A DNA stretch of 30,652 nucleotides, from IMG/VR virus record IMGVR_UViG_3300025276_000136, positions 1 through 30,652 of that record. One strand, 5' to 3'. A program made the position numbers and the translations under genes. This document shows, one piece after another, positions 6,301-24,588 of this stretch (positions are counted from its first letter, which is position 1; the number at the start of each line of letters is the position of its first letter). The stretch comes from a virus. A model generated the notes under the pieces. The model saw nothing but the letters and a program-made list of their open reading frames with translations, was not told the DNA's origin and made no database searches.

Positions 6301-7069
6301 CGATGCAGTCTTTACTATGTTTAGTAAAAGTTGTATGGAAGAAGAGATGGAGTACGACAAGTGTTTCATAGACGCTGACTCAATCATCTTTCGTATAGCA
6401 GTAACAACAGACTCAGTCACACAAGCAAAGTCATACTTTGATAAGGCACTTGATGCCATCATGCGTGACACTGGAAGTATCAAAGGTTACGTAGCTGTCA
6501 AAGGTAAAGGTAACTTCAGGTACGGTATCTCTGAGGACTACAAAGGTAACCGAAGTAAGTCCGAGATAGATCCTCAAGTAGCTGAAAGACGTAATGCAGT
6601 TACCGAGTACGCTTGGGAAACAGGTTGCTTCAAGTCAGATAACTGTGAGGCAGATGATGTTGTGTCTATCTGGGCGCAAGAAGCTTACGAAGCTGGTGAG
6701 CATTATGTCATAGCACATATCGACAAGGACATTGACATGGTCCCCGGTTGGCATTACAACTTCAACAAGAAGACACAATACTTTATTGACGCTGACCAAG
6801 GTCATTATAAAATGTGTATACAAATGCTTACAGGTGACAGCACAGATAACATTCATGGACTTAAGGGCATAGGCCCTAAGAAAGCCGAGAAGATCTTACA
6901 AGGTGTAGCCACTGAAGATATGCTTGAGACTGTTGCTAACACATGGCGTGACCACCATCCACGTGAGTGGAAGGGTATGCTTGAGACCTGCTTTAACTTA
7001 CTGTACATGCGCAGGAATTGGGATGGGTTTCGTAGGTTAACTATTGAAGAGGTATTTGTTAATGAGTAA
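6287..7069 (+). CDS. 5'-3' exonuclease (FEN / T7 gp6-like)
   Basis: 260 residues. It would degrade 5' ends of DNA or RNA-DNA, removing RNA primers and supporting host-DNA breakdown or recombination. Acidic metal-binding clusters of the PIN/FEN fold are visible: FIDADSIIF (D29, D31), CEADDVVSIW (E121, D123, D124), HIDKDIDMVPG (D146, D148) and LTGDSTDNIHG (D184, D187). These are followed by the helix-3-turn-helix GLKGIGPKKAEKIL (191-204). The start at 6287 is the first ATG, but ATGs a little later (M17, M21) are also possible because the conserved part begins near residue 25. It overlaps both neighbouring nuclease genes. Confidence 0.9.
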   Translation: MFNNNDAVFTMFSKSCMEEEMEYDKCFIDADSIIFRIAVTTDSVTQAKSYFDKALDAIMRDTGSIKGYVAVKGKGNFRYGISEDYKGNRSKSEIDPQVAERRNAVTEYAWETGCFKSDNCEADDVVSIWAQEAYEAGEHYVIAHIDKDIDMVPGWHYNFNKKTQYFIDADQGHYKMCIQMLTGDSTDNIHGLKGIGPKKAEKILQGVATEDMLETVANTWRDHHPREWKGMLETCFNLLYMRRNWDGFRRLTIEEVFVNE

Positions 7070-7553
7070 ACCCTTAGGACACTGGGACTACAAAGGAGAT
7101 CCATTTGTTGTTGACGATTACTTTGGTTTCATATATCTTATAACTGTATCTGTACCTGACGGTAATCCAATAAGATACGTAGGTAAGAAACAGTTCCATT
7201 CATATAAGAAAACCAAGAGAGACAAAGAGTCTAACTGGAAATCGTACACAAGCTCCTCCAAACATATCAATGAACTCATAAGAAATGGCTCTGTATTGTC
7301 ATACGAAATGATTCAATTGTTTGAAACAAGAGGTGGCTTGTCAGCAGCAGAGTGTAAAGTTCAATGGTACTTAGATGTTCTCACAGAGAAATGCCTGTTA
7401 GGTGTGCCTCTGTATTTAAACAGACAAATAGGTGCAATTAAATTCATTCCAAAAGAAGCAATATCAGATGAAACAAAAACAAGACTTGACGAAATCTACA
7501 GAAGTGGAAGACTACTTATTGAAGCCAAAGGAGAAGAAACAACAAAGACTTGA
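7062..7553 (+). CDS. GIY-YIG-like endonuclease (SegE-like)
   Basis: 163 residues from ATG 7062, which overlaps the exonuclease stop by 8 bases; gaagagg (7046-7052) nine bases upstream is the ribosome binding site, so the in-frame TTG at 7044 is not needed. The N-terminal half shows a degenerate GIY-YIG core: GFIYLIT, then IRYVGKKQFHSY, followed by NWKSYTSSSKHINELI and an E-rich helix (SAAECKVQWYLDVL). This resembles the SegE-type free-standing homing nucleases of T-even phages and similar proteins in other phages. A structural role in recombination, replacing the T7 gp3 resolvase, is an alternative. Catalytic residues are not certain by eye. Confidence 0.65.
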   Translation: MSKPLGHWDYKGDPFVVDDYFGFIYLITVSVPDGNPIRYVGKKQFHSYKKTKRDKESNWKSYTSSSKHINELIRNGSVLSYEMIQLFETRGGLSAAECKVQWYLDVLTEKCLLGVPLYLNRQIGAIKFIPKEAISDETKTRLDEIYRSGRLLIEAKGEETTKT

Positions 7554-7620: not shown

Positions 7621-9248
7621 TGGGTGCAACATTCACTAAGCACTACCCATGTGTACATTGTGGGTCTTCAGATGCAGTAGCACTATGGTCCAATGGAAGA
7701 GGTAAATGTTTTGCATGTAATAAGCCAGCATTCCTAGATCAATATGATGACACAGTCGTGTCAAAGTTTAACCCCAATACCGAACGAGAGTATGATATGA
7801 GTGGCGATTCACTTCAAGATATAAACAACTATGATAGTGCAGGTGTACGTGAACGTGGTCTCACTAAGACTGCATGTGATGAGTATGATATGAAAGTGTC
7901 TTACGACTCCAATGGTACAGTCAATGCACACTACTACCCCTACACAGTCAAGGGTAAAATAGTTGCGTACAAGAAACGTACACTACCTAAAGAGTTCCGA
8001 GTTGTGGGTGACCTTAAGAACGCTAAGCTTGAGTTGTTTGGTCAATCTAAGTTCCAACCCGGTGGTTTCAAGGTGATCATAACCGAAGGTGAGCTGGATG
8101 CTATTGCAGTTCAACAAGCAATGCTTAACAAGTACAAGCGTACCTACCCTGTAGTATCACTACCATCATCATCTAACATGAAAATACTTGTGGCTAATCG
8201 TGAATGGTTACGTTCATTCAAAGAAGTCATACTTATGTTTGACCAAGATGAAGCAGGTGAGAAAGCAGTGGCAGAAGCAGCTAAGATAATTGGATGGGAC
8301 ATAACTAAGGTAGCATCCCTGTCAACCAATGATCCCTGTGACTCCCTCATGGCTAATCCATTAGAGCTAATGACAGCTATCTTTAATGCACGTAAGTACA
8401 CACCTGCAGCTATCGTACGTGGTGAGGCTATATGGGAAGCATACGTTGAGCGTAAGGAAGTTAAGTCAATACCATACCCTAAGTGTCTTGAAGGTCTTAA
8501 CGATAAGCTAGATGGTATGCGTAAGGGTGAGATAGTTTTATTCACATCTGGCACTGGGTCAGGTAAATCAACAATGATCAAAGAGATCATACTAGAATTG
8601 GAGGATAATACAGATGAAAGCATTGGGCTTGTATCTCTTGAAGAAAGTATTGGAGATTCTGCAGAGAAATTTATCAAGATGTTTACTCCTCCAGACCCGA
8701 CTGTTGAGCAAGAGCGTAAAGCATTTGAAAGAGTATTTGGAAATGAACGTCTCATATTACTTGACCACAATGGAGCTGTTTCAGATTCTAGCCTCATTGA
8801 CCAAATCGAAAATCTTTGCTTGCTTGGCTGCCAGTATATCATTCTTGATCATATCACCATCGCTGTATCTGAAGGAGCTGATGGAAAGACAGGTAACGAA
8901 GCTATAGACTCAGTCATGTCTGATCTGTTAAAGATAGTCAAGAAGCATAACGTATGGCTGGGTTTAATCAGTCACCTTAGGAAGTCACAAGGTAGGTCCT
9001 TCGAAGAGGGACACCTATCATCTATTGATGACATCAAAGGTTCAGGCTCCATTAAACAGATTAGCTTTGATATAATTACATTCTCTCGTAACTTAGTGGC
9101 AGAAGATGAAGATGAAAGAAACACAATTAAACTCCGAGTACTTAAGTCACGATTCACAGGACGAACAGGGGACTGTGGTTCAGCATACTACGATACCAGA
9201 ACCAACCGACTCAGAGGACAAGAGGACTTCCTCGAGTACACTGGTTAA
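7620..9248 (+). CDS. T7 gp4-like DNA primase-helicase
   Basis: 542 residues from ATG 7620, six bases after aggtgg; a GTG at 7611 is less likely. T7 gp4 has 566. The N-terminal zinc-binding domain has CVHC (C11, C14) and CFAC (C30, C33). A Toprim-type primase core follows, with VIITEGELDAIAV and VILMFDQDEAGEKAV. The C-terminal RecA-like hexameric helicase has Walker A SGTGSGKST at about residues 310-318, Walker B-like QYIILDHITIAVS, then LISHLRKSQG and a KGSGSIKQ motif, and a C-terminal RVLKSRFTGRTG arginine-rich motif. It makes RNA primers and unwinds the fork with the upstream polymerase. Its last 140 bases overlap the longest frame of the RNA polymerase. Confidence 0.95.
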   Translation: MGATFTKHYPCVHCGSSDAVALWSNGRGKCFACNKPAFLDQYDDTVVSKFNPNTEREYDMSGDSLQDINNYDSAGVRERGLTKTACDEYDMKVSYDSNGTVNAHYYPYTVKGKIVAYKKRTLPKEFRVVGDLKNAKLELFGQSKFQPGGFKVIITEGELDAIAVQQAMLNKYKRTYPVVSLPSSSNMKILVANREWLRSFKEVILMFDQDEAGEKAVAEAAKIIGWDITKVASLSTNDPCDSLMANPLELMTAIFNARKYTPAAIVRGEAIWEAYVERKEVKSIPYPKCLEGLNDKLDGMRKGEIVLFTSGTGSGKSTMIKEIILELEDNTDESIGLVSLEESIGDSAEKFIKMFTPPDPTVEQERKAFERVFGNERLILLDHNGAVSDSSLIDQIENLCLLGCQYIILDHITIAVSEGADGKTGNEAIDSVMSDLLKIVKKHNVWLGLISHLRKSQGRSFEEGHLSSIDDIKGSGSIKQISFDIITFSRNLVAEDEDERNTIKLRVLKSRFTGRTGDCGSAYYDTRTNRLRGQEDFLEYTG

Positions 9249-11364
9249 CCCAGAGAAGTCTTCTGCTGGTGTAGAGCGTATAACATCGTACATAAAAGAA
9301 AGATGTGAGGGTAATACCTTTCGTGGGAGGCCCCCAGAAGGGGCCAGATTAATCTCCTCACTAATACCTTATGGATATACGTACGAGAAGCTAACTGTAA
9401 GGGCCGTAGCAGGTGCTGTCGCAGCTTATCAGAAGTCCAGGAGGTCATCAGCTAACCCCTTTAAACTAACCGTTACATCGTCTGTGATAGGCTTACAGGT
9501 GCTGTCTGCTTTAGGTGTACTAAACACTAACCATCAAGAGATCTTATCAGTTGGTGACCTGTACCTAGAAGCTTTCCTTCAACTAGGTTACATCCATATT
9601 GAAAGGGAATACAAAGGGTTCAGAGCACCTTACATTATTAAGTTGCTAAGTACATGGTCTAGCCTTGGAGACTTACCACCTGAGTATGTAAAGAAAACTC
9701 TTATTGGTACGTCATTCACACCACCTAAGGATATAATGTCACTGCGTAATGAGTTCACAAAGAGACCATACATTAAACGTATGAGTTCCGAAGAGGACTT
9801 TAAGCAGCTTATAGGAGCACCATTCATAACTGCCCTGAACAAGCTGCAACAAACACCTTGGAGACTTAACAACACAGTAGCTAAAGCTTTAGAGACTAAT
9901 CTAGGGTTGTTTATAGACCTTGAAGATCAGTCTATAAAAGCTAAATCAAAAGCTATAGAGATGAAGTTTGTGATAGCTAAGATACATGCCATTGGGTTAC
10001 GAGACTTCTATCAAATGGTAGAGTGTGACTATCGTGGACGTGTCTACTACACAGAACCATTCTTAAACTTCCAAGGTTCTGATGTATCCAAGGGACTCTT
10101 TGAGTTTGCTTATGCTAAACCTATGGATACTGAAGGTTACAGGTGGCTGTGTATTCATACAGCTTGTTCTTACAATCAATCGTACGAGCTAGAGGAACTA
10201 CCTACATGGATAACAACGGACTACCAAACTTATCTTCAAGACGAAGGGCTATCTACCATATCGGTAGACAAGATGACACTAAAGGACAGAGAGTTGTGGA
10301 CCCTAAACAACCTGACTTGGATAAGCCACTTAGCGGATGGGCAGAGCTTCAGAACAGAAGCAGAAAAACCCGTTAGTTTTCTTTCGTGTTGCTTAGATGT
10401 TACTGATTACACTAAAGCAATAGCTAATGGTGACGTACATATGAGTCGTGTACCTATCCCAGTTGATGGTAGTAACAATGGTTGGCAACATCTTGCAGCT
10501 ATCTCTAAGGACAACCAAGCTGGAGACCTAGTGTCCTTAGTTCCTAGTAAGATACAGAAAGATTTCTATGTCCAAGTAGCTAAACGTTTAATAGAAAGAA
10601 TGCCTGAGTGGTTTGCTGAACGTAACATACCAATGAAAGCTATCAGGAAAGGTATAGCTAAGCGTGGGTCTATGACAAGGGCTTACTCTGCTGGTCAGAA
10701 AAAGATAGCTGCTAACATGTACTATGACTGTAAGGTTGAAGGCTATGATAAGATGTACAGTATCACTGAAGATGACTGCACCCCTCTGTCAAAGCAACTG
10801 ATACTGGCAATCAACGACACATGTGTAGGTCCCTTAAAGACTATGAAGTTTATACAAAAGATGACTGACCATATCTTATCAACAGGTGAGACATGTACAC
10901 GTTGGACAACTCCTTCAGGATTCCCAGTGTTGTACGAAGTGTGGCGTCAGAAGAACATAACTGTGCGCAGTACCATACGTGGTCTTGGTCAGATAGGTCA
11001 CAGCATTAAGGTGCCTTACATAACTTCTAACGGAGACTTGTTACCGTGTCGAAGATCCTTTGCATCTGGATGCTCACCTAACTTTGTCCACTCAATGGAC
11101 GCAGCACACATGGCTAAAGTTATACAGAGTTTCTCTGGAGACTTTGGAGCTATACATGATTCATTCTCGACTCATGCATGTGATGTTAATAAACTAGTAG
11201 ATCACACCAAGTGGCAATTTGCTATGATGTATAACAGTGAAAACTTCTTTACTGTCATAGAGCAAATGCTTTTAGAAACCCGTGAGGGTTATGAACTTAA
11301 ACAACCAGAGTTAGGATCATTGGATATATCTGAGATAATATCATCTGATTACTTCTTTTGTTAA
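9106..11364 (+). CDS. T7-like single-subunit RNA polymerase
   Basis: 752 residues at most (T7: 883). It transcribes phage genes from its own promoters. Core motifs: DYRGRVY (D308-R312), motif A PIPVDGSNNGWQH with catalytic D454, motif B KRGSMTRAYS with K519 and Y527, motif C AIHDSF with D685, preceded by a PNFVHSMDAAHM block. K519 and Y527 are eight apart, as K631 and Y639 are in T7. Deviations: Ser follows the motif B Tyr (Gly in T7), and Lys515 sits where T7 has R627. The start is uncertain: ATG 9106 or 9112 (agaag six bases before) gives a long overlap with the helicase gene; the Ser/Thr/Glu-rich first 50 residues may not be translated. GTG 9175 is an alternative. It lies late in the replication block, unlike T7, where the polymerase is the first large gene. 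Confidence 0.93.
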   Translation: MKMKETQLNSEYLSHDSQDEQGTVVQHTTIPEPTDSEDKRTSSSTLVNPEKSSAGVERITSYIKERCEGNTFRGRPPEGARLISSLIPYGYTYEKLTVRAVAGAVAAYQKSRRSSANPFKLTVTSSVIGLQVLSALGVLNTNHQEILSVGDLYLEAFLQLGYIHIEREYKGFRAPYIIKLLSTWSSLGDLPPEYVKKTLIGTSFTPPKDIMSLRNEFTKRPYIKRMSSEEDFKQLIGAPFITALNKLQQTPWRLNNTVAKALETNLGLFIDLEDQSIKAKSKAIEMKFVIAKIHAIGLRDFYQMVECDYRGRVYYTEPFLNFQGSDVSKGLFEFAYAKPMDTEGYRWLCIHTACSYNQSYELEELPTWITTDYQTYLQDEGLSTISVDKMTLKDRELWTLNNLTWISHLADGQSFRTEAEKPVSFLSCCLDVTDYTKAIANGDVHMSRVPIPVDGSNNGWQHLAAISKDNQAGDLVSLVPSKIQKDFYVQVAKRLIERMPEWFAERNIPMKAIRKGIAKRGSMTRAYSAGQKKIAANMYYDCKVEGYDKMYSITEDDCTPLSKQLILAINDTCVGPLKTMKFIQKMTDHILSTGETCTRWTTPSGFPVLYEVWRQKNITVRSTIRGLGQIGHSIKVPYITSNGDLLPCRRSFASGCSPNFVHSMDAAHMAKVIQSFSGDFGAIHDSFSTHACDVNKLVDHTKWQFAMMYNSENFFTVIEQMLLETREGYELKQPELGSLDISEIISSDYFFC

Positions 11365-12132: not shown

Positions 12133-12168
12133 AATAACCCCCAAGTATACGTAATGTATACCTGAGGG
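12131..12168 (-). terminator. Predicted terminator of the late (- strand) operon
   Basis: The stem pairs 12138-12150 (cccccaagtatac) with 12156-12168 (gtatacctgaggg), with two mismatches and a 5-base loop. Read on the - strand, the hairpin is followed by ttatttt (complement of 12131-12137), which makes it an intrinsic terminator for transcripts coming from the vRNAP-like gene. On the + strand no T-run follows, so it is directional. Confidence 0.6.
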
Positions 12169-12172
12169 TAAT

Positions 12173-12228: not shown

Positions 12229-15200
12229 TTAATTAAAGTTAAACTCTTTAAGACCATCCACTGCAAACTCATGGATGATTGGTTTAGAACCTAAGGTATT
12301 AAGGATAGTCATTCGTCCCTTCTTAGCTTCATTCCCAATAGCTCTGATAGCTGCAATCTTAGTCATAGTTCGTGGCGTTAGCTTCGTAAAGAGATCAGCA
12401 AGTTCTTGGTTAGTTAACATGTGACTCCTATCAGAAATAGTTCTAACTTGAGAAGAAGTCAATGAAGGGTTACTCCTTCTGTTATCAAACTGTAAATCAA
12501 GGTCAGTAATTAACTTGTTAACACTAGCCTTTTTACCTTTTGAAGTATACTCTACAACTGAACCTTTAGCCTTCTTAACAATATCTGCCATAAGACCAAC
12601 GATGTATTCAGCATGTTCTTTATCTTCAACAAGACCTTCTGGGTCTTTAGCCGCAAGAGCCATGACCTTAGCTTTACCACGTGCATGTGATTCAGTAGCA
12701 CCATCAGCCAAAGATTTAATAAGATCATACTTAAGATTAACATTAACCCATGTCTGATTAGATAGTTTAAGCAATGGCATGAAGGAACCTAAGTCTCCAA
12801 TGAATGCATCGTATATCAATGAGACATAAGGTACCTGAACACCTGCTTCCCTTTTAAGTGCTTGGTACATAGGTCCAGACATTAGCCTAGAAAACACAGA
12901 GCCATCATTACTTATAATAGCTTGAGCTAGTATACCCTGCCTCATAGAGAAACCACCTTGTGCTGTACGACCCAAAGCAGTTAGCTTCTTTATTGTCATT
13001 GGAAGTTCTGCACTCACAGCTTTCTTGTAAGGCTTACCATCAGCATCTACCTGAGTAGATGGGTTGTCTGGCTTAGGGTCACCAAATATTCTACCTGCTT
13101 TAACTGGATCGGAATACTCTAGTTGTATAGTAGACTTAACCTTTTGATCAGTTTCTTGCATAGCTAAAGAGTTACTTGACGTTGTAGTTCCAGTAGCTTT
13201 TACAAAACGAATAGGTTCATTTGATAACATACCAACCTGAGTCATGTCCTTAAGAGCTTCTGCAAAGGCAACAATCTGAGGTGAAAGAGTTTCTGTTAAA
13301 CCTCTGGAAAGGATCTTGTGTAAGATCTTACCTGTACCTGCGGTTCCAAAAGAACTGATTGAAGCTGCAGCTCTGAGATTTTCATCAGTGCTTATTGCAT
13401 TCATAACTCCACCCAACATACGCTCGATAGCTTGTCCATAAGCAAAGGTCATAATAGGTGGCTTTAAAAACTCATCCTTGTTGAGTATAGCTAACTCAAG
13501 TAGGTTTAATATCTCAGTGTGATTAGACTCATCAATACCCCAACTGTTCATAAGCTCAGGATCAACAGTAAGATCACTGACAGATTGCCTCATGTTCATA
13601 ACCATAAGATCACGGAGGTTACCCTCAAGACCTTTGTATTCTGCAATAACTTTCTGAGGATGCTCACGAAGAACACCAACCCTGTACATAACATCTACAA
13701 TTCCAAGTTGAGCAGACATACTTGCAATACCATTCATGATACCATCGACTTCAATGGGTCTCATTTGTGACGTAGTAGTTCCACCACTCTTAACCGCATC
13801 CATGTAATTAGAAAGCTCAATGGCTTCTTCTATTAGATTTACAACTTCATTAGGGTGTTTTGCTGCTTCTGTTAAAAACCTCTTAACATCTTCATCCCCA
13901 CTAAAGTTAGGTCGTGGTGAGTTGATTGCAGCACCAACACCTTGGACTGCACCATCTACTATTTGCATGTTAAGTACAGCCCCAATAGGTAGGTCTGTGT
14001 TATAACTATCCATAGTTTCCTTAAGCTTCTTACCGACTGAAGCTATCTTCATAAGCTTAGGGTCAGGTGGGCTTGAGTTGATACGAGATCTCATATTGAT
14101 AAGCATCTTTTCTGGTACAAAATCACCATCTGTAAAGAAGTGACCTGCCCAAGTTATAAGCATAGCCTGTTCTTTAGTTGTGTTAGTGTTAGGTTTAACC
14201 TGATACTTAGTTCCACTACCAAACAGTTGCCTAGCAAACTTGTTGTTCTGAACGTTCATAACCTGAGTAGCATAGCTTATCCTAGATGTTCCTGACTGAA
14301 GGAAAGTAGGGAACCCTATGGGAAGACCGTAGACTTCAACAACATCTTGAACCATAGCCAAAGCTTTAGTAGCTTCTTGATTATACCTAGCCTTACGCCA
14401 AGCGTTTGTCTGGGCAGTCTTGTGGAAATCAAGAAGGACTCTGATCTGGTTTTGCTTATCAGGGTCAACAGAACGACCCATCATAAAATCATAATCTATA
14501 TCCTTCTGAAGAGCTTTAGCTTTTAATAATAGGTTTTCAGCAGTGTTGTTAATCTTGTCTGCCATCTTCTGACCAATGCCAAGGGAGTTACCCTGCCACG
14601 ATTCAACCTCAACCCTACCATTAATACCTACCATTTCACCGTCTATTTGTGTTTCAGTACCACCAACTAAAGGGTTTGTTAAAGTTTGGCTGGCATATTT
14701 AAAAGCTTGTAGCGCTATTAAAAGTCCTGCTTTCATACGGTTAGGTGATACAATATGTTTAACAGCTGATGTGTTCTTCATCGCTTCAACTTCGGGTTGC
14801 ACCTTACGCTTTTTATCTGATGGTAATTTAAAGTTCTTATTAGTGTCTGACTTATCTTTCTGATAAGCTGGGTATGACTTAGGGTCGTTAATGATTTGAG
14901 TCCTAATACGTACATCAGGTTCTATAGCATCTTTCCTAGCGTTTTCAATGGCCATAACACCAGTAGGTGTAAGTACATAATCATAACGCACGTTACCATT
15001 AGTCCCAACATCTATTAGCTTAGTGTTAGCTGGGTTACCTAAGTTGTACTGCTGCTTAACCCAAAGACCTAACTGTTCATAAGCTTCCTTAGTTAATTGA
15101 TTAGCAGGATCAAGATGCTTATCAGGGATAATATCTAGACCACCCTTAGCCACCTGCTGGTACATCATTAACTGTTCATGGTACATACTACCAAGCTTAC

Positions 15201-16011
15201 CAACAGAGATGTCTGACTCTGTGTCTGCAGCGGTCAATCCAGTGAGTTGATTAATCTCATCTTCAGTGAAGTTATCAACCATGTCAGGGGATATAATATT
15301 CCTGTCTTGCATATGACGCATGTACTCATGCTCCATAACAACAAAACCTAAGACTTGTGCATCAGGTGTAACCTCAAACATACGAACATCATCTGGACTA
15401 GTCTCTTGAATCATTTCAAGATGAGAGAAAAGATTAGCTGCAGTCAATGGTCTAGTCCTTGCGGCATCAACCATCTTTTCTTTAGGTAGATCAGGATCTT
15501 CAGCTACCCTGACAGCAGGTGCTTTAAAATTCATCATGTTTTGTATAACATAATTTCTTTTATCAGCCGAACCTTCTAAGCCTGTGTCCACTGGTATCTT
15601 AATTGAATCAGTTTTACTAAGGTTTGAAAGAGCCTGAACTAACCTAGGCTTGTTAGCCTCACCTACAATACCAGCAATGCTACTCTTGTCCCAACCAGAT
15701 AAAACTTCTGTGTCAGCCAACTGCTGAATAGAACTAGACCTAGCTCTTTGTTGTTGCTGTAACTCAAGTGCAGCTATCTGTTCTGGGTCATTAACAGGAA
15801 GCATCTCTTGCTTCCCATCATTAACACCAACAGGTGAAGCAGGAAGAACTTCATTGGTGTACTGAACTTCTTCCGTGTCAAACACATTGTCTTGAGTTAA
15901 ACCTACTTGAATTTTATCTGAGATAGCATCTTGTATCCCATTAGAATCCATAGCCCTAGATGCTTCAAGACGTTTCACTTGCCCTGCATTACCTGCATTA
16001 AACTTAGCCAT
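12229..16011 (-). CDS. Predicted virion RNA polymerase (N4 vRNAP-like single-subunit RNA polymerase), 1260 aa
   Basis: No annotation-grade family is obvious at first sight, but the T7/N4 polymerase core is readable. Block 1 at 574-597 (GTSRISY, then NVQNNKFARQLF) aligns without gaps to DxxGR of the phage's other polymerase (R, Y, N, Q, L and F identical). Motif A is RPIEVDGIMNGIASM with D756. Motif B is LKPPIMTFAYGQ with K850 and Y858 (T7: K631-x3-MT-x-AYG). Motif C is SLIYDAF with D1068. D756 to K850 is 94 residues, the same as D537 to K631 in T7. About 440 N-terminal residues have no match. N4 vRNAP has about 3500 residues, so this would be a compact version. As the last gene of the ejection-protein block it is probably packaged and injected (inference). 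Odd points: D846 replaces R627, and YDA replaces HDS. The aggagg eight bases before the ATG is strong. Confidence 0.75.
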   Translation of the reverse strand: MAKFNAGNAGQVKRLEASRAMDSNGIQDAISDKIQVGLTQDNVFDTEEVQYTNEVLPASPVGVNDGKQEMLPVNDPEQIAALELQQQQRARSSSIQQLADTEVLSGWDKSSIAGIVGEANKPRLVQALSNLSKTDSIKIPVDTGLEGSADKRNYVIQNMMNFKAPAVRVAEDPDLPKEKMVDAARTRPLTAANLFSHLEMIQETSPDDVRMFEVTPDAQVLGFVVMEHEYMRHMQDRNIISPDMVDNFTEDEINQLTGLTAADTESDISVGKLGSMYHEQLMMYQQVAKGGLDIIPDKHLDPANQLTKEAYEQLGLWVKQQYNLGNPANTKLIDVGTNGNVRYDYVLTPTGVMAIENARKDAIEPDVRIRTQIINDPKSYPAYQKDKSDTNKNFKLPSDKKRKVQPEVEAMKNTSAVKHIVSPNRMKAGLLIALQAFKYASQTLTNPLVGGTETQIDGEMVGINGRVEVESWQGNSLGIGQKMADKINNTAENLLLKAKALQKDIDYDFMMGRSVDPDKQNQIRVLLDFHKTAQTNAWRKARYNQEATKALAMVQDVVEVYGLPIGFPTFLQSGTSRISYATQVMNVQNNKFARQLFGSGTKYQVKPNTNTTKEQAMLITWAGHFFTDGDFVPEKMLINMRSRINSSPPDPKLMKIASVGKKLKETMDSYNTDLPIGAVLNMQIVDGAVQGVGAAINSPRPNFSGDEDVKRFLTEAAKHPNEVVNLIEEAIELSNYMDAVKSGGTTTSQMRPIEVDGIMNGIASMSAQLGIVDVMYRVGVLREHPQKVIAEYKGLEGNLRDLMVMNMRQSVSDLTVDPELMNSWGIDESNHTEILNLLELAILNKDEFLKPPIMTFAYGQAIERMLGGVMNAISTDENLRAAASISSFGTAGTGKILHKILSRGLTETLSPQIVAFAEALKDMTQVGMLSNEPIRFVKATGTTTSSNSLAMQETDQKVKSTIQLEYSDPVKAGRIFGDPKPDNPSTQVDADGKPYKKAVSAELPMTIKKLTALGRTAQGGFSMRQGILAQAIISNDGSVFSRLMSGPMYQALKREAGVQVPYVSLIYDAFIGDLGSFMPLLKLSNQTWVNVNLKYDLIKSLADGATESHARGKAKVMALAAKDPEGLVEDKEHAEYIVGLMADIVKKAKGSVVEYTSKGKKASVNKLITDLDLQFDNRRSNPSLTSSQVRTISDRSHMLTNQELADLFTKLTPRTMTKIAAIRAIGNEAKKGRMTILNTLGSKPIIHEFAVDGLKEFNFN

Positions 16012-16043: not shown

Positions 16044-19000
16044 TTAATCATCAGTATTCCAGTTTATCATTCTGTTTTTGTAAGGAGCAAAGATAGGTAT
16101 ACTTCCGTATAAGTTTCTTTTGAATTGAGCATCATCCGATGTTATTAGACCTTCAATAATACCATAGGTACGTTCAACTGTACCAGCAGCAGGGGCTTCA
16201 CCTGCAACGTGATCCCACACATACTCTGAAGCACCGTAAGAACTTTCAGGATACAATGGAAACAAGAAGTCACTCCCGATTACACGCTCCATAGTTCCTA
16301 GTAAACCGCTTGAGTAGATAGCTCGTTGTATTTTCTGTGGGTCTGACAGGTACGGTGAAGACTCTCCATACTTGAGTTCATCTTTGATTCCTTGAGATGC
16401 AAATGCAAGAAGCAGCATAGTGCTAGCTGATGCAAAAGTTCCGTAAGTTAATCCTTTAGAACTAGGACCTCCCCGCTTAACTTGATCCCACATCATTGGT
16501 ATCTGGTTAGCTTGGAACGTTGAAGTAAAACCATTAAACTGTGTTAGCATTGCAAAGTGTGGGTCACTATAGATCAGTGGCCTGTTCAATGCGTTAGGCA
16601 TAGGTATAGCTTGGTTAACAAAGTTAGCAGCTCCATTTAAGAACACGTCTTTGTAGATAGCTTCTTCAGTTTGAGTCAATGCTTCACCACGTTTCATCTT
16701 ATGTGATAAGGGTTGTAAAGCACTAAGAGGTATACCTAAATCTCTTAACATTTTCTTAGCTTCTGCAACACCAACTGTGTCAGGCTGACCTTCATACCTG
16801 TCAATAAGATCTATCTTACCTATAAGAAAATCATTAAAGAGCGACAGACGCATCATACGATGCATGTCTTGTTGGTCGTGTAAGAAGTTAGCCTTGAAGA
16901 AAGCGTCAGCCATCCCCTTAGTTAACTGGTTAGTTTCCTGAACACCTGTGGTTGTAGCTGCACCAGTTTCCTGAGACATAAATCCAGTACTACGTAACAT
17001 TTGTTTCATGTCTGTGTAGTATACAAAGCGAGGGTCATTGTCTCCCTTAGACCGATACTCTGCTAGTTTCTTTTCAATGATAGTCTCAAGGGTATCACGG
17101 GGCTTTGCAACCCTAGCAACAACACCTAAGTTTCTAATCCAAGATCCAACAGCATTGCCAAAAAGATAACCGTAAGTCGCTGTGTTCTTAACCATAACGT
17201 CCCGAGGTACACCATTAAAAATCATAGCAACTTCTGGTATAGAAGAGAAAGCAGCGTTAGATAAAGACTGCAGCATAGTGACAACTGTTAAGTATTTCTG
17301 AGCTTGCTTTAAGTTTTGATTCTCTATACGTTTATAGTTACCTGACTCCGCATTCAAAGCATTACGAATATCGTGTGCAAGTTCTGAAGTGTGCTTTACT
17401 GCAGCCTCTTCACCCTTAGCATTACGAATCTCCACGTAAGTATCATTAAGCATACGATTTAAATACACTGAGTCTTTACCTAAAAACTTACGATGAGCCT
17501 GAAATCTTGCAGCAGATCGTGAAGCATCCCCCATGTTTTTAAATATGTTCTGCTCTAAGAACTTAGCAAACTCAGGTCGATCAGAGATATTCATTTTACG
17601 TTGTTTGTTATAAGAAGGATTGAGTCCATGCTTAGTTACATCAAACGCATCACCAATAGTGTTAACTGTTTCATCGTTTATAATAGAGTCAGTCAAATCC
17701 AAAGCAGTGTTATAATCAATAGCATAAGAAACCATTAATGTGTTTATAAACTCAACCTTATGGTTAGCAATATACTCTGTCAATAAATTCTTATGTCTGT
17801 ATGACCAATCCTGAAGAACCTCTATTGGGTCTTGACTATTAGCAACTGTGTTACTATCTTCAATAGCAATGTTGTTATCCCTAAGCATTGCATTAGACCT
17901 TGCCAAAAGCTCTTTGTCGTACCTAAGTATAGCTTGCTTGTTAGATACAAGTTCGTCTGAAGCTTTACTCCAATCAACAGGCTTTCCAGATTTTCTTGAA
18001 GGTTTAAGTAGTTCTTCATTGTACTTATACATTAACTTACTTACAAAGTCAGACCTACCAGCAGAGCTTAAACCTCGAGGAGTTTTAAAGGATGCTTCAA
18101 TCTCTTCTTGAGGAGAAAGCATACCATCGTACTCAGCCACTTTAAGTTGTTGAGACATAACCATGTTCTTTCCGGGGAACACACGGTTTCTGTAAGAGCC
18201 AACCATGTCTACCATTTTAACAGCAGTAGTAGACACACCATCAAGTTTCTGAATAGCATTGTCCATTGTTCCACGTAAAGCAACCTTAGGGTTCTTTGCA
18301 AAAGATTTAATCCAAGCAAGACTGGTGTTAGGTCTGTCATGCATCTCAGCCCAATCGTCTACACTTCGTGGGTTAGCTAAGTCATTGTCAGGGTTCCAAG
18401 ATTTACCTGTCTCTTCAGCCTCAGTTTTCTCAAACCTCTGCTCTGCCATGCTCTCTTGAAACACTTTCTCTTCTACAGCGTTAGTAGCTGTGATTGATTC
18501 AACTGTTTGAATGTAACCCCTTGAGTCTTCTTGATCCTTAACTATATTACTGTGTACTTGATTGTCGAACCTGTTGTCAACCTCACTGTCAATGTCAGCA
18601 GCGGAATGCCAATCAGCAACTTGGAAAGCAGTGCCCGGAGCTGTAAAACCAGCACCCATAATACCACCTGCTACAACAGCGTTGATCATACGATTTTCTA
18701 TTTCATCGTAGTTCCATTGTTTCTCAGAGCCAATGACAGCAGCAGTGTACTCTGTGAGTTCCTGCATTGCCTCTGTCACACCCTCTTGAGCAGTACCCCT
18801 TGATAGTCTCTTAACACTTTCTCTGAACAAGTGACCTTTCTGTATTTGATTAGCCGCAAACTCTTTAGAGTTATCAATCTGTGAGAGCAACTCTCGTTTA
18901 CTCATAGATAGTAACAGGCTTGATGCCTCTGCATTAGAAACGCCTTTAACTCTAGCAATGTGCTCTATAGCTTTTGTACGTCCTTCTTTAGTAAGCATCA

Positions 19001-20132
19001 TCTTAGGGCTGACAAGACCCTTAAGTCCTAGCCTGTCTAAGAAAGTCATAGCAGTTCCAGCTACCATAGCAACGCCAAGATTCTTATCAGCTATGTCACC
19101 TTCCATAGTATCTAAAACCATACCTGTGTAAACAGAAACAGGTAGTCCAATAGAAGTACCAGCAGTTACAGGCATTGCAGCCATACCAACTAAGGTTGCA
19201 CCCATGAATGGCAGAGATGAACCAAGCATACCCCTAAGTCCAGAGGATACTTCATCAAACTCAGTCCAATCCATTTCAGTTACATTCATGTTTAGCATTG
19301 GCTGTGCGTTAATGTACCTTTGATTACTAGCTGCATCTGCTGCAAAGGATGCTTCAGTTTCTTCAGCACCTAAACGATCGCTAAGTGCTTGTCCAAAAGT
19401 GTTTAAACCTTTGTACAAGTTAGCAAATCCAATGTCAAAGCCAGTACCAAAAGGAGTACGAGACTTACCTTCATAATCTGCACCAGCGTTAACAGTCTTA
19501 ATACCCATGTAGAAATTAGGGTTACGTGCAAACTCAGCAGCGTCAAAAGCCATTAACTTCTGTACTGCCATACCACCATAAGGGTCTGTCTCAACCTCGT
19601 AGATAGCTTGTCTGGCTTGCTCAAAAGAACTAAGGTCACTGTCAGCACCTAATACTTTATCAGAGTTTCTACTCTTCTCAGCAAAGTTACTGGCAAGTAC
19701 ATTACCCATGTCATCTCCACCAGAAAATCTTGATGGAGAAACTACACCAGCTTTTATCAGAGTTTGTACAAATGATTCACCATCTGCATTAAACAAATCA
19801 CCAAGGTCACGATCGTAGTAACCTTGCTCACCTGAATAAACTTCTCTGTTAAAACCATATTCATTTGCAAGACTAGCTATGTAAGCTGTAGCAGAATCTG
19901 CACCAATCTCAGACTCTGAGTATGGCTTTTCTTTTATAAACTTAGCAGTCTCTCTGGTGTCAATACCATCTAGTCTTATAGACTTACCTGTTGTTGAGTT
20001 GAATATAGTATCACCATCAATGAAAGCCCAATCGGACCCGTTAATAGCTAGTGAGCTTTCTTGGGGGCCTTGTGTAGCCTCTTCTTCTTGTGTGAGTAAA
20101 TCACCTAGATCTAAAACAAGACCTTCTCCCAT
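16044..20132 (-). CDS. Large internal virion protein with N-terminal staphylococcal-nuclease-like domain, 1362 aa
   Basis: Residues about 34-132 match the SNase fold: FIDGDTIF (D39, D41), SIRLDGIDTRE (R53, D58, T59, E61), YYDRDLGDLF (R108) and a VQTLIKAGVV block that parallels EALVRQGLA. The nuclease residues D21, R35, D40, E43 and R87 of the Staphylococcus enzyme are all represented. The rest resembles giant ejection proteins of short-tailed phages: hydrophobic helices at about 300-365 (LPFMGATLVGMAAMPV) and near the C-terminus (ASASTMLLLAFASQG), and long helical stretches between. It is probably carried in the head or core and injected, where the nuclease might act on host or incoming DNA or RNA. 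The site aggaga precedes the ATG. It is encoded just before the vRNAP-like gene, 32 bases apart. Confidence 0.8.
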   Translation of the reverse strand: MGEGLVLDLGDLLTQEEEATQGPQESSLAINGSDWAFIDGDTIFNSTTGKSIRLDGIDTRETAKFIKEKPYSESEIGADSATAYIASLANEYGFNREVYSGEQGYYDRDLGDLFNADGESFVQTLIKAGVVSPSRFSGGDDMGNVLASNFAEKSRNSDKVLGADSDLSSFEQARQAIYEVETDPYGGMAVQKLMAFDAAEFARNPNFYMGIKTVNAGADYEGKSRTPFGTGFDIGFANLYKGLNTFGQALSDRLGAEETEASFAADAASNQRYINAQPMLNMNVTEMDWTEFDEVSSGLRGMLGSSLPFMGATLVGMAAMPVTAGTSIGLPVSVYTGMVLDTMEGDIADKNLGVAMVAGTAMTFLDRLGLKGLVSPKMMLTKEGRTKAIEHIARVKGVSNAEASSLLLSMSKRELLSQIDNSKEFAANQIQKGHLFRESVKRLSRGTAQEGVTEAMQELTEYTAAVIGSEKQWNYDEIENRMINAVVAGGIMGAGFTAPGTAFQVADWHSAADIDSEVDNRFDNQVHSNIVKDQEDSRGYIQTVESITATNAVEEKVFQESMAEQRFEKTEAEETGKSWNPDNDLANPRSVDDWAEMHDRPNTSLAWIKSFAKNPKVALRGTMDNAIQKLDGVSTTAVKMVDMVGSYRNRVFPGKNMVMSQQLKVAEYDGMLSPQEEIEASFKTPRGLSSAGRSDFVSKLMYKYNEELLKPSRKSGKPVDWSKASDELVSNKQAILRYDKELLARSNAMLRDNNIAIEDSNTVANSQDPIEVLQDWSYRHKNLLTEYIANHKVEFINTLMVSYAIDYNTALDLTDSIINDETVNTIGDAFDVTKHGLNPSYNKQRKMNISDRPEFAKFLEQNIFKNMGDASRSAARFQAHRKFLGKDSVYLNRMLNDTYVEIRNAKGEEAAVKHTSELAHDIRNALNAESGNYKRIENQNLKQAQKYLTVVTMLQSLSNAAFSSIPEVAMIFNGVPRDVMVKNTATYGYLFGNAVGSWIRNLGVVARVAKPRDTLETIIEKKLAEYRSKGDNDPRFVYYTDMKQMLRSTGFMSQETGAATTTGVQETNQLTKGMADAFFKANFLHDQQDMHRMMRLSLFNDFLIGKIDLIDRYEGQPDTVGVAEAKKMLRDLGIPLSALQPLSHKMKRGEALTQTEEAIYKDVFLNGAANFVNQAIPMPNALNRPLIYSDPHFAMLTQFNGFTSTFQANQIPMMWDQVKRGGPSSKGLTYGTFASASTMLLLAFASQGIKDELKYGESSPYLSDPQKIQRAIYSSGLLGTMERVIGSDFLFPLYPESSYGASEYVWDHVAGEAPAAGTVERTYGIIEGLITSDDAQFKRNLYGSIPIFAPYKNRMINWNTDD

Positions 20133-20154
20133 AGTATTCTCCTGTTACTTCATC

Positions 20155-22305
20155 TTAAAATTTACTATCAAAATCAATATTAACTGCAATACCCCTAACT
20201 TCAGGAGAATTAAGTCCTAAGTATTGATGCTCATGGTTTATGGTTGAAGTGTCATTGCTCTGCATCCACGACATGAATGCATTACTTCTGTCACCAGCTT
20301 GATCTGTCCAGTACACACGTGCAATTGGATCTAGCATTACAGTATCCTGAAACAAACGTCCAAGCTCCTGCACAACCCTAGTAGTGGTTATCTTTTCATT
20401 AGCGTCCTGCTTGGTAGCTCCATTAGTGACAGCAGACTTTACCCAATAATTTCTTAAAGAGTTTATCTTTGTTTCAAGAACACCCTTAGCATGACCACTA
20501 GCGTCAAAACCTTTTTCATATTCGGCAACACCATTGTCACCCCACTTCGTAGCTTTTCCGTATATAAACTCTGGTATGTTACCTTCACCTGTTAGGCTAT
20601 TCTTGAGTTGCATTTCTCGCCACTCACCAACCATGCTTGCAGTCTCTTCGCCATAGTCACCTTTACGTAAACCATTAGCTTGTTTCTCCATTGTAGATGT
20701 TAACATGTTTTGGAACATAGCCGTAAATGCAGCATTGTCATAATCAACACCTGCTTCCTGCATCTCTCTAGTAACAACTTCAAGAACATCTCTGGCTGCA
20801 CGTCCGTTACCAAAAGTCTGGTTGAGTGCTTCCAAGTCTTCAGCATCATACGATGTGTTACTGTTAAGAGCTTTAAGAAAATCATTTGTATTCTTATTAG
20901 TGGAGTCTAAAATAGCCTTGTTTATTTCATCAAAAGTTTGATGAGTCCCTGATTTATAAGTAACAAGCCCAGATGTCACTGGGTTTATAGCAATAGGGTT
21001 TCCATCTTCATCCTTGTTAAGTCCGTCATCTGTAATCTGATAAAAAGATTTACCATCTTTAGACGAGTAACCTGAGATAATTCGTTTTGAACTTTTATCC
21101 CACAGTTGCACAGACTTTGTTTGATCTACTGCTGAATTTGCGGCAGCTTTGTTTTCTGCTTTAGTTGTAACTATGTCCGCAGCAGCTTGGTTCTTCCAAC
21201 CTTGAATAAGAACTTGACCAGCAGCCATACCTGAGCCACTACCAGAGTAACCCATAAGACGAGCACCCATGTAGTACACAAGTGCATTCTTAATAGCTGT
21301 ATCTTCCCACAGAGAACCTAAGCCTTTACCAGCAAGTGCCATAGCTCCTTTAACAGTATCGACACTTCCGTCAAAGAAAGATTGCAACGCGCTATCACCT
21401 TCTTCTTGAACTGTATTTTTATCTGAAGTTCCAAGCTGTGGCATTAACTTAGTGGGGTCCATTCCTTGGGCCATGTTCATAAGAGCCACAGAATCTGGAT
21501 CTTTATCTACAGCAGCAGAAGCGGATATGTCTTTACGCCAAGATGTTGCATCAGCAAGTTTAGCTTCAAGAGCATCCCGTTGTTCTAACGCAGGTTTAAG
21601 TGCACGTCTAAGAGCTTCAGGGTCAAAGCTTAAATTCTTTACATGTGCGTCAATTATAGCTTGGTTGTTTGCCAGATCATTTTTAACATCATCTTCCCAC
21701 TCGGTAATGGATTGTTGTGGATCTGTAGCAGACTTAAGTTTAGTTAACTCTATCTTAGCTTGAGCTAATAACTCAGGTGAAGCGTTTACTTCTGTGAGTA
21801 ATTCAACCTTGTCTTGTGCTGCAGTCAACGCTTTCAAACTATCTGCATCAAGCTCTGATTGTTCTTCAGAAAGAACACCTTTAGTTTCTTCTGCATCATA
21901 CACTGTGGGAAATAAAGCTTCCTCTAGTACCATAGTTCCAAGACCTATAGGTGTTAATGCCCTAGGAATCTTACTAGCTTTCCATGCAGCTTTACCAAAC
22001 TTAGCCAGCTTCTTGTAGTCAGTTGGTTTAACCTTGTTACCCATATCATCTACAGCAACCTTTGGGAAAGTAGTCCTTGGGTTACCCTTCTTATCTACTT
22101 TAGGTATAGTGTTCTTCGGTTTAACCTTATTGTCTAAGTTTAATGTTTGTTGAGTTGGAACTGGTTTAGTTGGAACTGGTTTACTAGGTGCTAGGTTTGG
22201 TTTCCGACCCCTACCATCAAAGTTAAGCTTGCCCTGATTTGGATCAGGAACAGGCCTAGGTATGTTAGTGCCTGAAAATCTAGGCATACTTTTATCAACA
22301 GCCAT
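20155..22305 (-). CDS. Probable internal virion / ejection protein, 716 aa
   Basis: No enzyme motif recognised. The N-terminus is Pro/Lys-rich and low in complexity (SKPVPTKPVPTQQ, repeated VKPKNTIPKV-like units), followed by a basic segment (DYKKLAKFGKAAWKASKIPR), Glu/Ala-rich coiled-coil-like helices at about 140-270, a Gly-rich hydrophobic segment (YYMGARLMGYSGSGSG) at about 330-360, and a mixed C-terminal domain. Position between the muramidase-bearing protein and the 1362-aa protein suggests the second of three large ejected proteins, as T7 gp14-gp15-gp16 or P22 gp7-gp20-gp16 (analogy only). Its ATG shares a base with the previous stop (taatg) and its ggaggt site lies in the previous gene's last codons. 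Confidence 0.7.
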   Translation of the reverse strand: MAVDKSMPRFSGTNIPRPVPDPNQGKLNFDGRGRKPNLAPSKPVPTKPVPTQQTLNLDNKVKPKNTIPKVDKKGNPRTTFPKVAVDDMGNKVKPTDYKKLAKFGKAAWKASKIPRALTPIGLGTMVLEEALFPTVYDAEETKGVLSEEQSELDADSLKALTAAQDKVELLTEVNASPELLAQAKIELTKLKSATDPQQSITEWEDDVKNDLANNQAIIDAHVKNLSFDPEALRRALKPALEQRDALEAKLADATSWRKDISASAAVDKDPDSVALMNMAQGMDPTKLMPQLGTSDKNTVQEEGDSALQSFFDGSVDTVKGAMALAGKGLGSLWEDTAIKNALVYYMGARLMGYSGSGSGMAAGQVLIQGWKNQAAADIVTTKAENKAAANSAVDQTKSVQLWDKSSKRIISGYSSKDGKSFYQITDDGLNKDEDGNPIAINPVTSGLVTYKSGTHQTFDEINKAILDSTNKNTNDFLKALNSNTSYDAEDLEALNQTFGNGRAARDVLEVVTREMQEAGVDYDNAAFTAMFQNMLTSTMEKQANGLRKGDYGEETASMVGEWREMQLKNSLTGEGNIPEFIYGKATKWGDNGVAEYEKGFDASGHAKGVLETKINSLRNYWVKSAVTNGATKQDANEKITTTRVVQELGRLFQDTVMLDPIARVYWTDQAGDRSNAFMSWMQSNDTSTINHEHQYLGLNSPEVRGIAVNIDFDSKF

Positions 22306-23951
22306 TACTTACCTCCGAATCCTTTGACACCCGTTAACTGATCTACAGCTGACTGAGGTGTGGCATTAGCGCCTTTACCGCCAGCAGGTGCTTTATAAGC
22401 TGGGTTCTGTGTGGGAGATCCAACCATAGATCCATTACTAGATACAATAGGTTGTCCATTACCGCTAATAACAGTACCCATTGGTATTGCAGGGTTTTGT
22501 AAATGTGGTGACATAGTGATAACCATCTTACCGTTTTTATCGTAATGGTAACCATCACCACCGTTCTTTAATAAATTAAGTTGAGTCTGCTGAAGTATAT
22601 TATCCATATGACTTTGCTTACTAGGGTAAGCTACAGCGGCTGGTTCTTTAACTGCTGATTGATAACCTAAAGCACTCATAAGACCTTGGTCTACAGTTCC
22701 CTGTGGGGGTGCGATGTTAAGCTGACTTGCTTGTTGACGGTTTGGTGGAACCTGATAACCTAAAGAGTTCATAAGACCTTGATCTACAGTACCCATTGTT
22801 TGGTAACCTAAAGAGTTCATAAGACCTTGATCTACAACACCTAAAGGTTGTTGCATTTTCCTAGCCTGTTCTCCAAATACACCACCGTTTGCAACACTAG
22901 GTATGTCATTGTCTATTACAGGGGGCATAGTTCTTTCCATGCCAGCAATAACATCTGGCTTTGCATTACGTTTCTTTAAATAGGAATTAACCTGTGCTTG
23001 TGTTGCCATTTTATTCTCCGCTTTGGGTACAGTAGCCCCTTGTTCGGGTACTGGAATATCTTGTGTTGTTGTTGGTGAAACTTTTTCTTTTGGTACTTCA
23101 CCAGTAGAAAACATTTGATCTATAATCCCTTCTACAGAATCTTGAACTGAATCAAAAGCATCACTAAAGATGTTTGACTCTGGTACCTTATCAGTAGTGA
23201 AGCCACTGCCCATACCATTAAGCATTGCAGCGTCCTCTCTCTGATCATAGATTGACTGACTACGATCTTGCATCTGTTGTATAAGCTGAGGTTCTGCTGA
23301 TCTTTTTAAAGCTGCAGCTCTCCAATCAAACCTTGGAATAAGACCTCTGTTTACACCAGTAATACCCTTAGCTTTGTTGTATTCATTATGATTAATATGT
23401 TCAACAGCAGCCTTACGAAAGTCACCGTTGTTTACGTGATCAACCCATTTCTGAGAGGTAACCACTCCAGTGTCCTTATTGGTGTTAGTCAAGTCACCAC
23501 GATAAGCAGAGTCAACAAGAGCAAGCTGAACCTGAGGGTGTAGTCTTGCGTATTTAGGTACACGACTCTTAGCCTCATTGGTCTTTTCTGTCATAGCCCT
23601 AAGTGGTGAGGGGTCAGCAACATACTCAGCTGTAAGGCCTACGCCTGTGGTTAAGATACCTGAGCCATCTAAATAGAAGTTTGGATTGTACCCTTCTTCA
23701 CCAGAAAGATGAGCAAGTAAATCTTTGTATTCCGATGTAACATCAGTGTAAACTTCAGCTGTTTTTAAAACTGCATCGGTTCCTCTCACTGTACCACTTG
23801 GGTCTAAGATTGGAACTTTACCTGCAGCTTCCATAGTGTCAAGTGCTGCTTTATTATTAGCCCAAGTCTCTTCATTAGATTTAACTTTACCTTTTCCAAA
23901 CGTGGAATCAAGCCTAGTTTGCAAATCTTTAATTTGTGTAGCAGTTGCCAT
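22305..23951 (-). CDS. Virion protein with N-terminal GH24 lysozyme-like (muramidase) domain, 548 aa
   Basis: Residues about 75-215 form a T4-lysozyme-type domain. E86, D95 and T101 have exactly the E-x8-D-x5-T spacing of T4 lysozyme (E11, D20, T26) in SGEEGYNPNFYLDGSGILTT, followed by GVGLTAEY. A later NRGLIPRFDWRAAAL block matches the R-rich C-terminal helix of GH24 enzymes. The remaining 330 residues are low in complexity and contain three copies of a VDQGLMNSLGYQ unit (about 370-430). Lysis genes lie 6 kb away with their own endolysin, so this enzyme is more likely a particle component that opens the cell wall during DNA entry, like the lytic domain of T7 gp16. It ends in GFGGK. Confidence 0.78.
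   Translation of the reverse strand: MATATQIKDLQTRLDSTFGKGKVKSNEETWANNKAALDTMEAAGKVPILDPSGTVRGTDAVLKTAEVYTDVTSEYKDLLAHLSGEEGYNPNFYLDGSGILTTGVGLTAEYVADPSPLRAMTEKTNEAKSRVPKYARLHPQVQLALVDSAYRGDLTNTNKDTGVVTSQKWVDHVNNGDFRKAAVEHINHNEYNKAKGITGVNRGLIPRFDWRAAALKRSAEPQLIQQMQDRSQSIYDQREDAAMLNGMGSGFTTDKVPESNIFSDAFDSVQDSVEGIIDQMFSTGEVPKEKVSPTTTQDIPVPEQGATVPKAENKMATQAQVNSYLKKRNAKPDVIAGMERTMPPVIDNDIPSVANGGVFGEQARKMQQPLGVVDQGLMNSLGYQTMGTVDQGLMNSLGYQVPPNRQQASQLNIAPPQGTVDQGLMSALGYQSAVKEPAAVAYPSKQSHMDNILQQTQLNLLKNGGDGYHYDKNGKMVITMSPHLQNPAIPMGTVISGNGQPIVSSNGSMVGSPTQNPAYKAPAGGKGANATPQSAVDQLTGVKGFGGK
22306..22316 (-). promoter_or_regulatory. Ribosome binding site embedded in the stop region of the muramidase-bearing gene
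   Basis: On the - strand ggaggtaagtaatgg encodes Gly-Gly-Lys-stop of the upstream gene and at the same time gives the SD site and ATG of the 716-aa gene. The same 18 bases (22299-22316) recur at 24582-24599. Confidence 0.75.
22660..22841 (-). repeat. Three imperfect ~40-bp coding repeats (VDQGLM-x2-LGYQ units)
   Basis: Copies lie at about 22660-22699, 22754-22793 and 22802-22840. The last two are nearly identical in DNA (taacctaaagagttcataag shared), and the first differs at a few positions. They encode VDQGL-M-(N/S)-(S/A)-LGYQ, separated by 3 and about 19 residues. The near-identity points to recent tandem duplication, or to a repeated binding motif under selection. Confidence 0.85.
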
Positions 23952-23961
23952 TATATACCCC

Positions 23962-24588
23962 TTACTTTCCTGAGTTAGCAGCTAACATCATTCCACCAAG
24001 TACCAGTGGAGCAAACGGACCTGCTGCTAGTGCCATAGGAGCTGCTGCTGCTGCTGCACCTGTACCTGCTGCTGCTGCACCTGTTACTGCGGTGGCTGCG
24101 GCTGCTTCTGCGGCTGCTGCTGCAGCTACCTCTGCTGCTATTGCAGCCTCTGCACCACCTGATGCCATAGCACTAAACCCAGCTGCTGGACTTGCACCCA
24201 TAAGAGCTGTTGAACCCTGTGCTACTGTATTTGCTGCTGTTGCTTGTTGGGCTGCTATGGCCCCTTCAGCACCGCCAAACATACCTGACGGTGAAACAGC
24301 TGTACCCATAGTGTTGGATAGCTCACTGACAGGTATGTTTGATGGCGATTGTGGTGATTTAGTTAAAGCACTCCACGCATCCTTACTACTGTCAACCAAA
24401 TAGTTACCTGCACTTTTTGCCATAGGTGAAGTTACAGCTTTTTCTACTAGAGTTGGAGCTATTGTTTCCATAAGTCCGGGATTATCGTGCATAGCTACGT
24501 TAGGAGTAGGAAGCCCTTGCACTTGAGGAGCCTTACCCATCTGCTGTTGTTGTGTCATCTGAGGGGCAAAGGGATTAAATCCAGCCAT
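23962..24588 (-). CDS. Alanine-rich virion protein, 208 aa (ejection-type)
   Basis: The N-terminus is polar and Gln/Met-rich (MAGFNPFAPQMTQQQQMGK), the centre is mixed, and the second half is very rich in alanine (about residues 125-195), ending in a hydrophobic helix (GPFAPLVLGGMMLAANSGK). No family is recognised. Small Ala/Gly-rich hydrophobic proteins of this kind sit beside large ejection proteins in many short-tailed phages and may form part of a membrane channel. It starts at 24588, sharing a base with the previous stop, with ggaggt in the previous gene's end. Confidence 0.65.
   Translation of the reverse strand: MAGFNPFAPQMTQQQQMGKAPQVQGLPTPNVAMHDNPGLMETIAPTLVEKAVTSPMAKSAGNYLVDSSKDAWSALTKSPQSPSNIPVSELSNTMGTAVSPSGMFGGAEGAIAAQQATAANTVAQGSTALMGASPAAGFSAMASGGAEAAIAAEVAAAAAAEAAAATAVTGAAAAGTGAAAAAAPMALAAGPFAPLVLGGMMLAANSGK
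24030..24250 (-). repeat. GCN-type trinucleotide-rich stretch (poly-Ala coding)
   Basis: Runs such as gctgctgctgctgctgc recur at about 24040-24160, with shorter runs to 24250, encoding the alanine-rich half of the 208-aa protein. The opposite strand stays open by composition only. Confidence 0.7.

Follow-up and report, generated by a model that had tools for sequence, protein, structure and literature searches.

In the uncultured marine phage of viral record IMGVR_UViG_3300025276_000136, of which positions 1 to 30,652 (30,652 nucleotides) are referred to here as the window, the late operon ends with a gene that very probably encodes a compact stand-alone virion RNA polymerase (vRNAP) of the N4 type, packaged and injected for early transcription. 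That the 1260-aa product belongs to the single-subunit RNA polymerases is nearly certain from sequence profile and predicted fold; we infer its packaging and injection from homology and position, and the promoter type too is inferred. A polymerase had been proposed in this open reading frame from the letters of the DNA (the original prediction). The frame was confirmed, and its strand, absent from that prediction, is minus. The gene and the catalytic blocks of its product are as follows:

12229..16011, minus strand: predicted compact RNA polymerase of virion type (1260 aa), closing the late operon
14221..14295, minus strand: block equivalent to T/DxxGR, residues 573-597 (SGTSRISY...NVQNNKFARQLF), with R577 and N586-x-Q-x-x-K-x-x-R
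13714..13770, minus strand: motif A, residues 748-766, with predicted catalytic D756 (EVDGIMNG)
13429..13467, minus strand: motif B, residues 849-861, with K850 and Y858 (LKPPIMTFAYGQA)
12880..12918, minus strand: pre-C block, residues 1032-1044 around D1036-G1037 (IISNDGSVF)
12778..12825, minus strand: motif C, residues 1063-1078, with predicted catalytic D1068 (SLIYDAFIGDLGSF)

These five blocks are in register across the 1260-aa protein, N4 vRNAP and T7 RNAP; the T7 residues D537/K631/Y639 and the N4 mini-vRNAP residues D559/K670/Y678/D951 were taken from the T7 and N4 records. The block at residues 573-597 is in register with TRVGR..NPQSAKLVR of N4 and DWRGR..NPQ of T7, and its GTSRISY/NVQNNKFARQLF stretch matches the DxxGR block of the T7-like RNAP of the same genome (DYRGRVYYTEPFLNFQGSDVSKGLF) without gaps, as had been claimed. 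In motif A, D756 (within PIEVDGIMNG, which begins at residue 752) aligns with D559 of N4 mini-vRNAP (EADGVTNG) and D537 of T7. K850 and Y858 of motif B (LKPPIMTFAYG, from residue 849) align with K670/Y678 of N4 (AKNPLTITIYG) and K631/Y639 of T7, and D1068 of motif C (SLIYDAF, from residue 1064) with D951 of N4 (KIFDGMN) and D812 of T7 (IHDSF). The order of the three motifs and every residue position quoted for them in the original prediction were right. Its inventory of blocks was correct as far as it went; the fifth block, at D1036-G1037 (T7 HSQDGS), which aligns with VHSQDGSHL of T7 and is invariant across the compact family, had been overlooked. The spacings of 94 (D756-K850) and 8 (K850-Y858) residues do equal those of T7, as noted earlier; however, the value of 94 is not diagnostic by itself because it varies from 92 to 99 in relatives and is 111 in N4, and the agreement with T7 was set aside as coincidence.

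Searched alone, the 1260-aa protein had no match in Pfam, PHROGs, PDB or annotated phage records. Relatives were therefore gathered by stepwise IMG/VR searches, with identities from 99% to 27%; no relative of this compact family was found in the genome-contig collection. Full-length members measure 1190-1261 aa. All 11 sequences (ten metagenomic relatives and this one), down to 27% identity, keep D756, K850, Y858 and D1068 unchanged. Conservation in the alignment of eleven is highest at the active site, where the invariant columns cluster (E754-V-D756-G-I-x-N760-G; F848-L-K850-P-P-x-M-T-x-x-Y858-G-Q; D1036-G1037; P1061-Y...I1066-x-D1068-A). Values of dN/dS of 0.16-0.26 across the whole gene were obtained, with strong purifying selection on the core. 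Several distant relatives have PHROG matches of their own, to RNA polymerase (8.4e-7 and 7.2e-4) and to virion RNA polymerase (7.6e-5).

A profile of the compact family also found no match among PDB sequences, and the polymerase link is based on profile comparison and predicted structure because single-sequence and PDB sequence searches found nothing. The profile search that had been suggested as a check matched single-subunit RNAPs, specifically the virion RNAPs of N4 type, and kept the three motifs aligned. For this comparison the N4 mini-vRNAP region was aligned with the corresponding parts of 13 further N4-like vRNAPs. An HMM of these 14 catalytic domains placed all members of the compact family above all shuffled, reversed and unrelated decoys (best 3e-10; 0.075 for the 1260-aa protein itself). 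In profile-profile comparison, the family matched the 14 N4-like (Schitoviridae) catalytic domains with an E-value of 1.2e-12, a score of 121 and a probability of 97.8% over 464 columns, residues 562-1110 of the window protein being paired with N4 mini residues 410-992 and motifs A, B and C falling in register. The nulls, ten made by shuffling columns and two by reversal, scored 14-22. Comparisons by hhalign with single N4 or T7 sequences were weak. The top matches of the merged profile among other phage sequences were the T7-like RNAP of roseobacter phage CRP-7 (1.3e-5) and T7 RNAP (1.5e-5), and its alignment to T7-like enzymes lines up the NPQ block, motif B, the pre-C block and motif C. A BLASTP comparison of the 1260-aa protein with the T7-like RNAP of its own genome was not significant (best E 0.42), one segment of it aligning motif A. 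In a maximum-likelihood tree of the core, for which the program warns of long branches, the compact family forms its own clade (100/100), and the N4-like vRNAPs (87/61) share its side of a 100/100 split from the T7-like enzymes. The polymerase reading thus stands; the agreement with T7 spacing is not the main evidence for it, because sequence and tree group the protein with N4-type vRNAPs and not with T7.

A structure was predicted with AlphaFold2 from residues 91-1260 and 12 family sequences, without templates or known polymerases. The model is of moderate confidence (pLDDT 67, pTM 0.56), with values of about 80-90 over much of the core and about 53 at the motif C block, and it has strands at motif A and on both sides of motif C. 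The predicted fold had been named beforehand as a point at which the polymerase claim could fail; it is that of a single-subunit RNAP, all 50 of the 50 Foldseek matches in the PDB at E<=0.001 being T7 RNAP, yeast mitochondrial RNAP or human POLRMT (best 8.7e-11). Among predicted viral proteins, nearly every named match at E<=0.001 was an RNA polymerase, and several of these were annotated as vRNAPs. The palm/fingers/thumb fold of single-subunit RNA polymerases is thus present in the model, within its moderate confidence. An unnamed viral protein of 1463 aa, A0A7S5FRK7, also matched the model (E 1.2e-8), and may be another mid-sized virion-type polymerase.

The gene closes the late operon, after the virion-type proteins, which is where the original prediction had placed it. 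The features around it are:

9106..11364, plus strand: second RNA polymerase, a one-piece T7-like RNAP of 752 aa (Pfam RNA_pol 5.9e-52, phrog_414 1.4e-103)
12137..12169, minus strand: terminator-like hairpin (14 pairs) separating the convergent operons, by pattern match only
16044..20132, minus strand: virion/ejection-type protein of 1362 aa (phrog_6958 virion structural protein 1.1e-13), a conserved neighbour in related contigs
20155..22305, minus strand: conserved neighbour of 716 aa, by position and conservation only
22305..23951, minus strand: protein of 548 aa with a phage-lysozyme domain (Phage_lysozyme 0.0032, phrog_7 endolysin 1.7e-5)

Within the window the leftward operon runs, in order of transcription, from the endolysin through the virion and tail genes to the lysozyme-domain protein, the 716-aa protein, the 1362-aa virion-type protein (directly upstream of the polymerase gene) and the compact polymerase. 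Facing it is a rightward replication block with ribonucleotide reductase, DNA polymerase, exonuclease, primase-helicase and the T7-like RNA polymerase, whose gene is convergent with that of the compact polymerase. The neighbours are called ejection proteins from their position and weak domain matches. The 548-aa protein is likely the cell-wall part of the ejection apparatus, and the 716-aa protein, which had no family match, is likely an internal virion protein. The N-terminal ~130 residues of the 1362-aa protein contain a weak staphylococcal-nuclease (SNase)-like domain, the only part of this protein found in CRP-7 gp34 (34% identity, E 1e-6); it may be an injected nuclease. An alanine-rich late protein of 208 aa without a family match is encoded just upstream of the lysozyme-domain protein (window 23962-24588), and a SegE-type GIY-YIG homing endonuclease (Pfam 2.9e-23) lies between exonuclease and primase-helicase in the replication block (window 7044-7553).

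In related contigs the same order is kept: two large virion-type proteins, the compact polymerase, and then the convergent T7-like RNAP and primase-helicase. The compact polymerase closes the late operon right after virion-type proteins in every related contig showing the region, and the T7-like RNAP is tail to tail with it wherever the arrangement was read. A scan for hairpin promoters (short stem, 3-nt loop) found the N4 control and nothing convincing here, where the early ends of the contigs are apparently missing. The right end of a 51.7 kb relative (18300-18739), beyond the terminase gene, is non-coding and dense in short inverted repeats (e.g. GGATACC TAG GGTATCC), and carries a 25-base direct repeat, TGTTCCTATAAGGTACTTAAAAGAT. 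This repeat-rich end may represent late-operon promoters or terminal signals.

As an N4-type vRNAP, the compact polymerase would be synthesised late and packaged with the neighbouring ejection proteins, and would be injected ahead of the DNA or with it. It would then transcribe the early genes, independently of host RNAP, at a stage when no phage protein has yet been synthesised. The T7-like RNAP would subsequently serve middle and/or late genes, so that two polymerases would act in a cascade, as in N4.

Other readings of the gene were weighed against this one. It is improbable that the protein is an active single-subunit RNAP made late and left unpackaged, perhaps serving late transcription or the priming of replication in the same infection. 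Such an enzyme would have the intact catalytic residues and the place among late genes that are seen here, but the closest relatives known for this protein are packaged vRNAPs and not middle or late T7-like polymerases, the genome already carries a T7-like RNAP, and the gene stands immediately behind virion-type proteins in all contigs showing the block. A former polymerase retained as a non-catalytic structural ejection protein is less probable still. Divergence so great that single-sequence searches miss the 1260-aa protein would fit such decay, as would the R that replaces K in the motif B of its possible counterpart in CRP-7; against it stand the four invariant catalytic residues, the conservation peak at the active site and the strong purifying selection on the core.

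There remains the reading that this is an ordinary internal virion protein in which the motifs match by accident. The negative single-sequence and PDB sequence-profile searches are what it has in its favour, yet it is already contradicted and deserves hardly any weight: the profile-profile score is far above the nulls, the merged profile recovers T7 RNAP, and the structural matches are exclusively single-subunit RNAPs. At the level of sequence, the motif match is beyond chance because its residues are invariant in 11 sequences, the score of 121 compares with nulls of at most 22, and family members rank above all decoys. A packaged and injected N4-type vRNAP remains the preferred reading.

A protein of similar size (1235 aa) is encoded by CRP-7 gp33 (17859-21566), annotated as a hypothetical protein. 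Like the compact polymerase, it is found at the end of the late operon and is convergent with a T7-like RNAP. Its candidate motifs are MEADARQSNAG, RGLVVAGLYG and AIHDA, with catalytic positions invariant in its relatives; motif B has R where the compact family has K. No significant pairwise similarity between gp33 and the 1260-aa protein was detected. Profile support is weak (P 0.001 at the motif C region; HMM 0.07), and AlphaFold gave an unusable model of the CRP-7-type family (pLDDT 37). Only ORF30 is named as an RNA polymerase in the CRP-7 paper (PMC6918029). From motifs and position, we regard gp33 as likely to represent a second and highly divergent lineage of compact RNA polymerases encoded in late operons. 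A similar hidden polymerase was sought in SIO1, VpV262, CRP-6 and HMO-2011, and none was found.

With somewhat better than even probability, injected virion-borne single-subunit RNAPs are not peculiar to the giant N4 protein and also occur as a stand-alone, deep lineage of ~1200 aa in uncultured marine podoviruses, and in a CRP-7-type roseophage lineage. If this is true, packaging and injection of the polymerase do not depend on the giant domains that flank it in N4 vRNAP, since other virion proteins can supply these functions; the ~1200-aa form would be a polymerase set apart from the domains to which its packaging, inhibition and delivery have been ascribed. A compact polymerase is small enough for routine biochemistry and would offer a simple model for the packaging and delivery of such enzymes. 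A gene called hypothetical in CRP-7, which is in culture and infects the abundant marine RCA roseobacters, may govern how infection begins. The pairing of two polymerases may also help to trace the kinship of T7-like and N4-like transcription programmes.

The known kind to which the protein belongs is the N4-type vRNAP, and its compact form is new, every such vRNAP that was checked being different from it. N4 gp50 and other Schitoviridae vRNAPs (the catalytic domain being the N4 mini-vRNAP, residues 998-2103) share with the compact family an ExDGxxNG motif A, a K-x7-YG motif B and an [IV][FYH]D[GA] motif C, and their NPQ and pre-C D blocks are in register. A late-operon place beside ejection proteins is also common to both, the N4 vRNAP gene following gp52 and gp51. 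Core identity between the two groups is only about 15%, and in the tree they are separate clades. A vRNAP of ~3500 aa and three RNA polymerase genes have been given as characters of the N4-like family by Wittmann et al. (PMC7650795), and the large vRNAP has been held as a hallmark of N4-like phages; the compact form departs from it. At 1190-1261 aa, as against 3022-3632 aa for 14 N4-like vRNAP genes, the compact family has none of the giant N- and C-terminal regions of Schitoviridae vRNAPs, and the 1260-aa protein is 36% of the length of N4 vRNAP, in line with the one third originally estimated. It has been described that N4-like RNAPs are always fused to zincin-like HExxH peptidase domains (PMC5512222), whereas no HExxH motif was found in the 11 compact-family sequences, two or three of which are truncated by the contig end. 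Nearly all vRNAP phages are reported to have a heterodimeric second RNAP (Lenneman and Rothman-Denes, PMC4496689), the RNAPII of gp15/gp16 type in N4-type phages; in contrast, a one-piece T7-like RNAP (702-755 aa) was found in nine of the nine compact-polymerase records checked, all of them fragments. The shortest vRNAP found in the literature examined is that of Alteromonas phage R22Y (2083 aa), which was compared with schitoviruses in its paper (PMC11705849). It too is shorter than usual and comes from a podovirus with a second RNAP, but it is about 800 aa longer than the compact polymerase and is set beside it here by its published description. Finally, T7 RNAP and the genome's own T7-like RNAP share the superfamily, the fold and the five blocks of the compact polymerase; unlike it, they lie on the other side of the tree and are encoded outside the virion genes.
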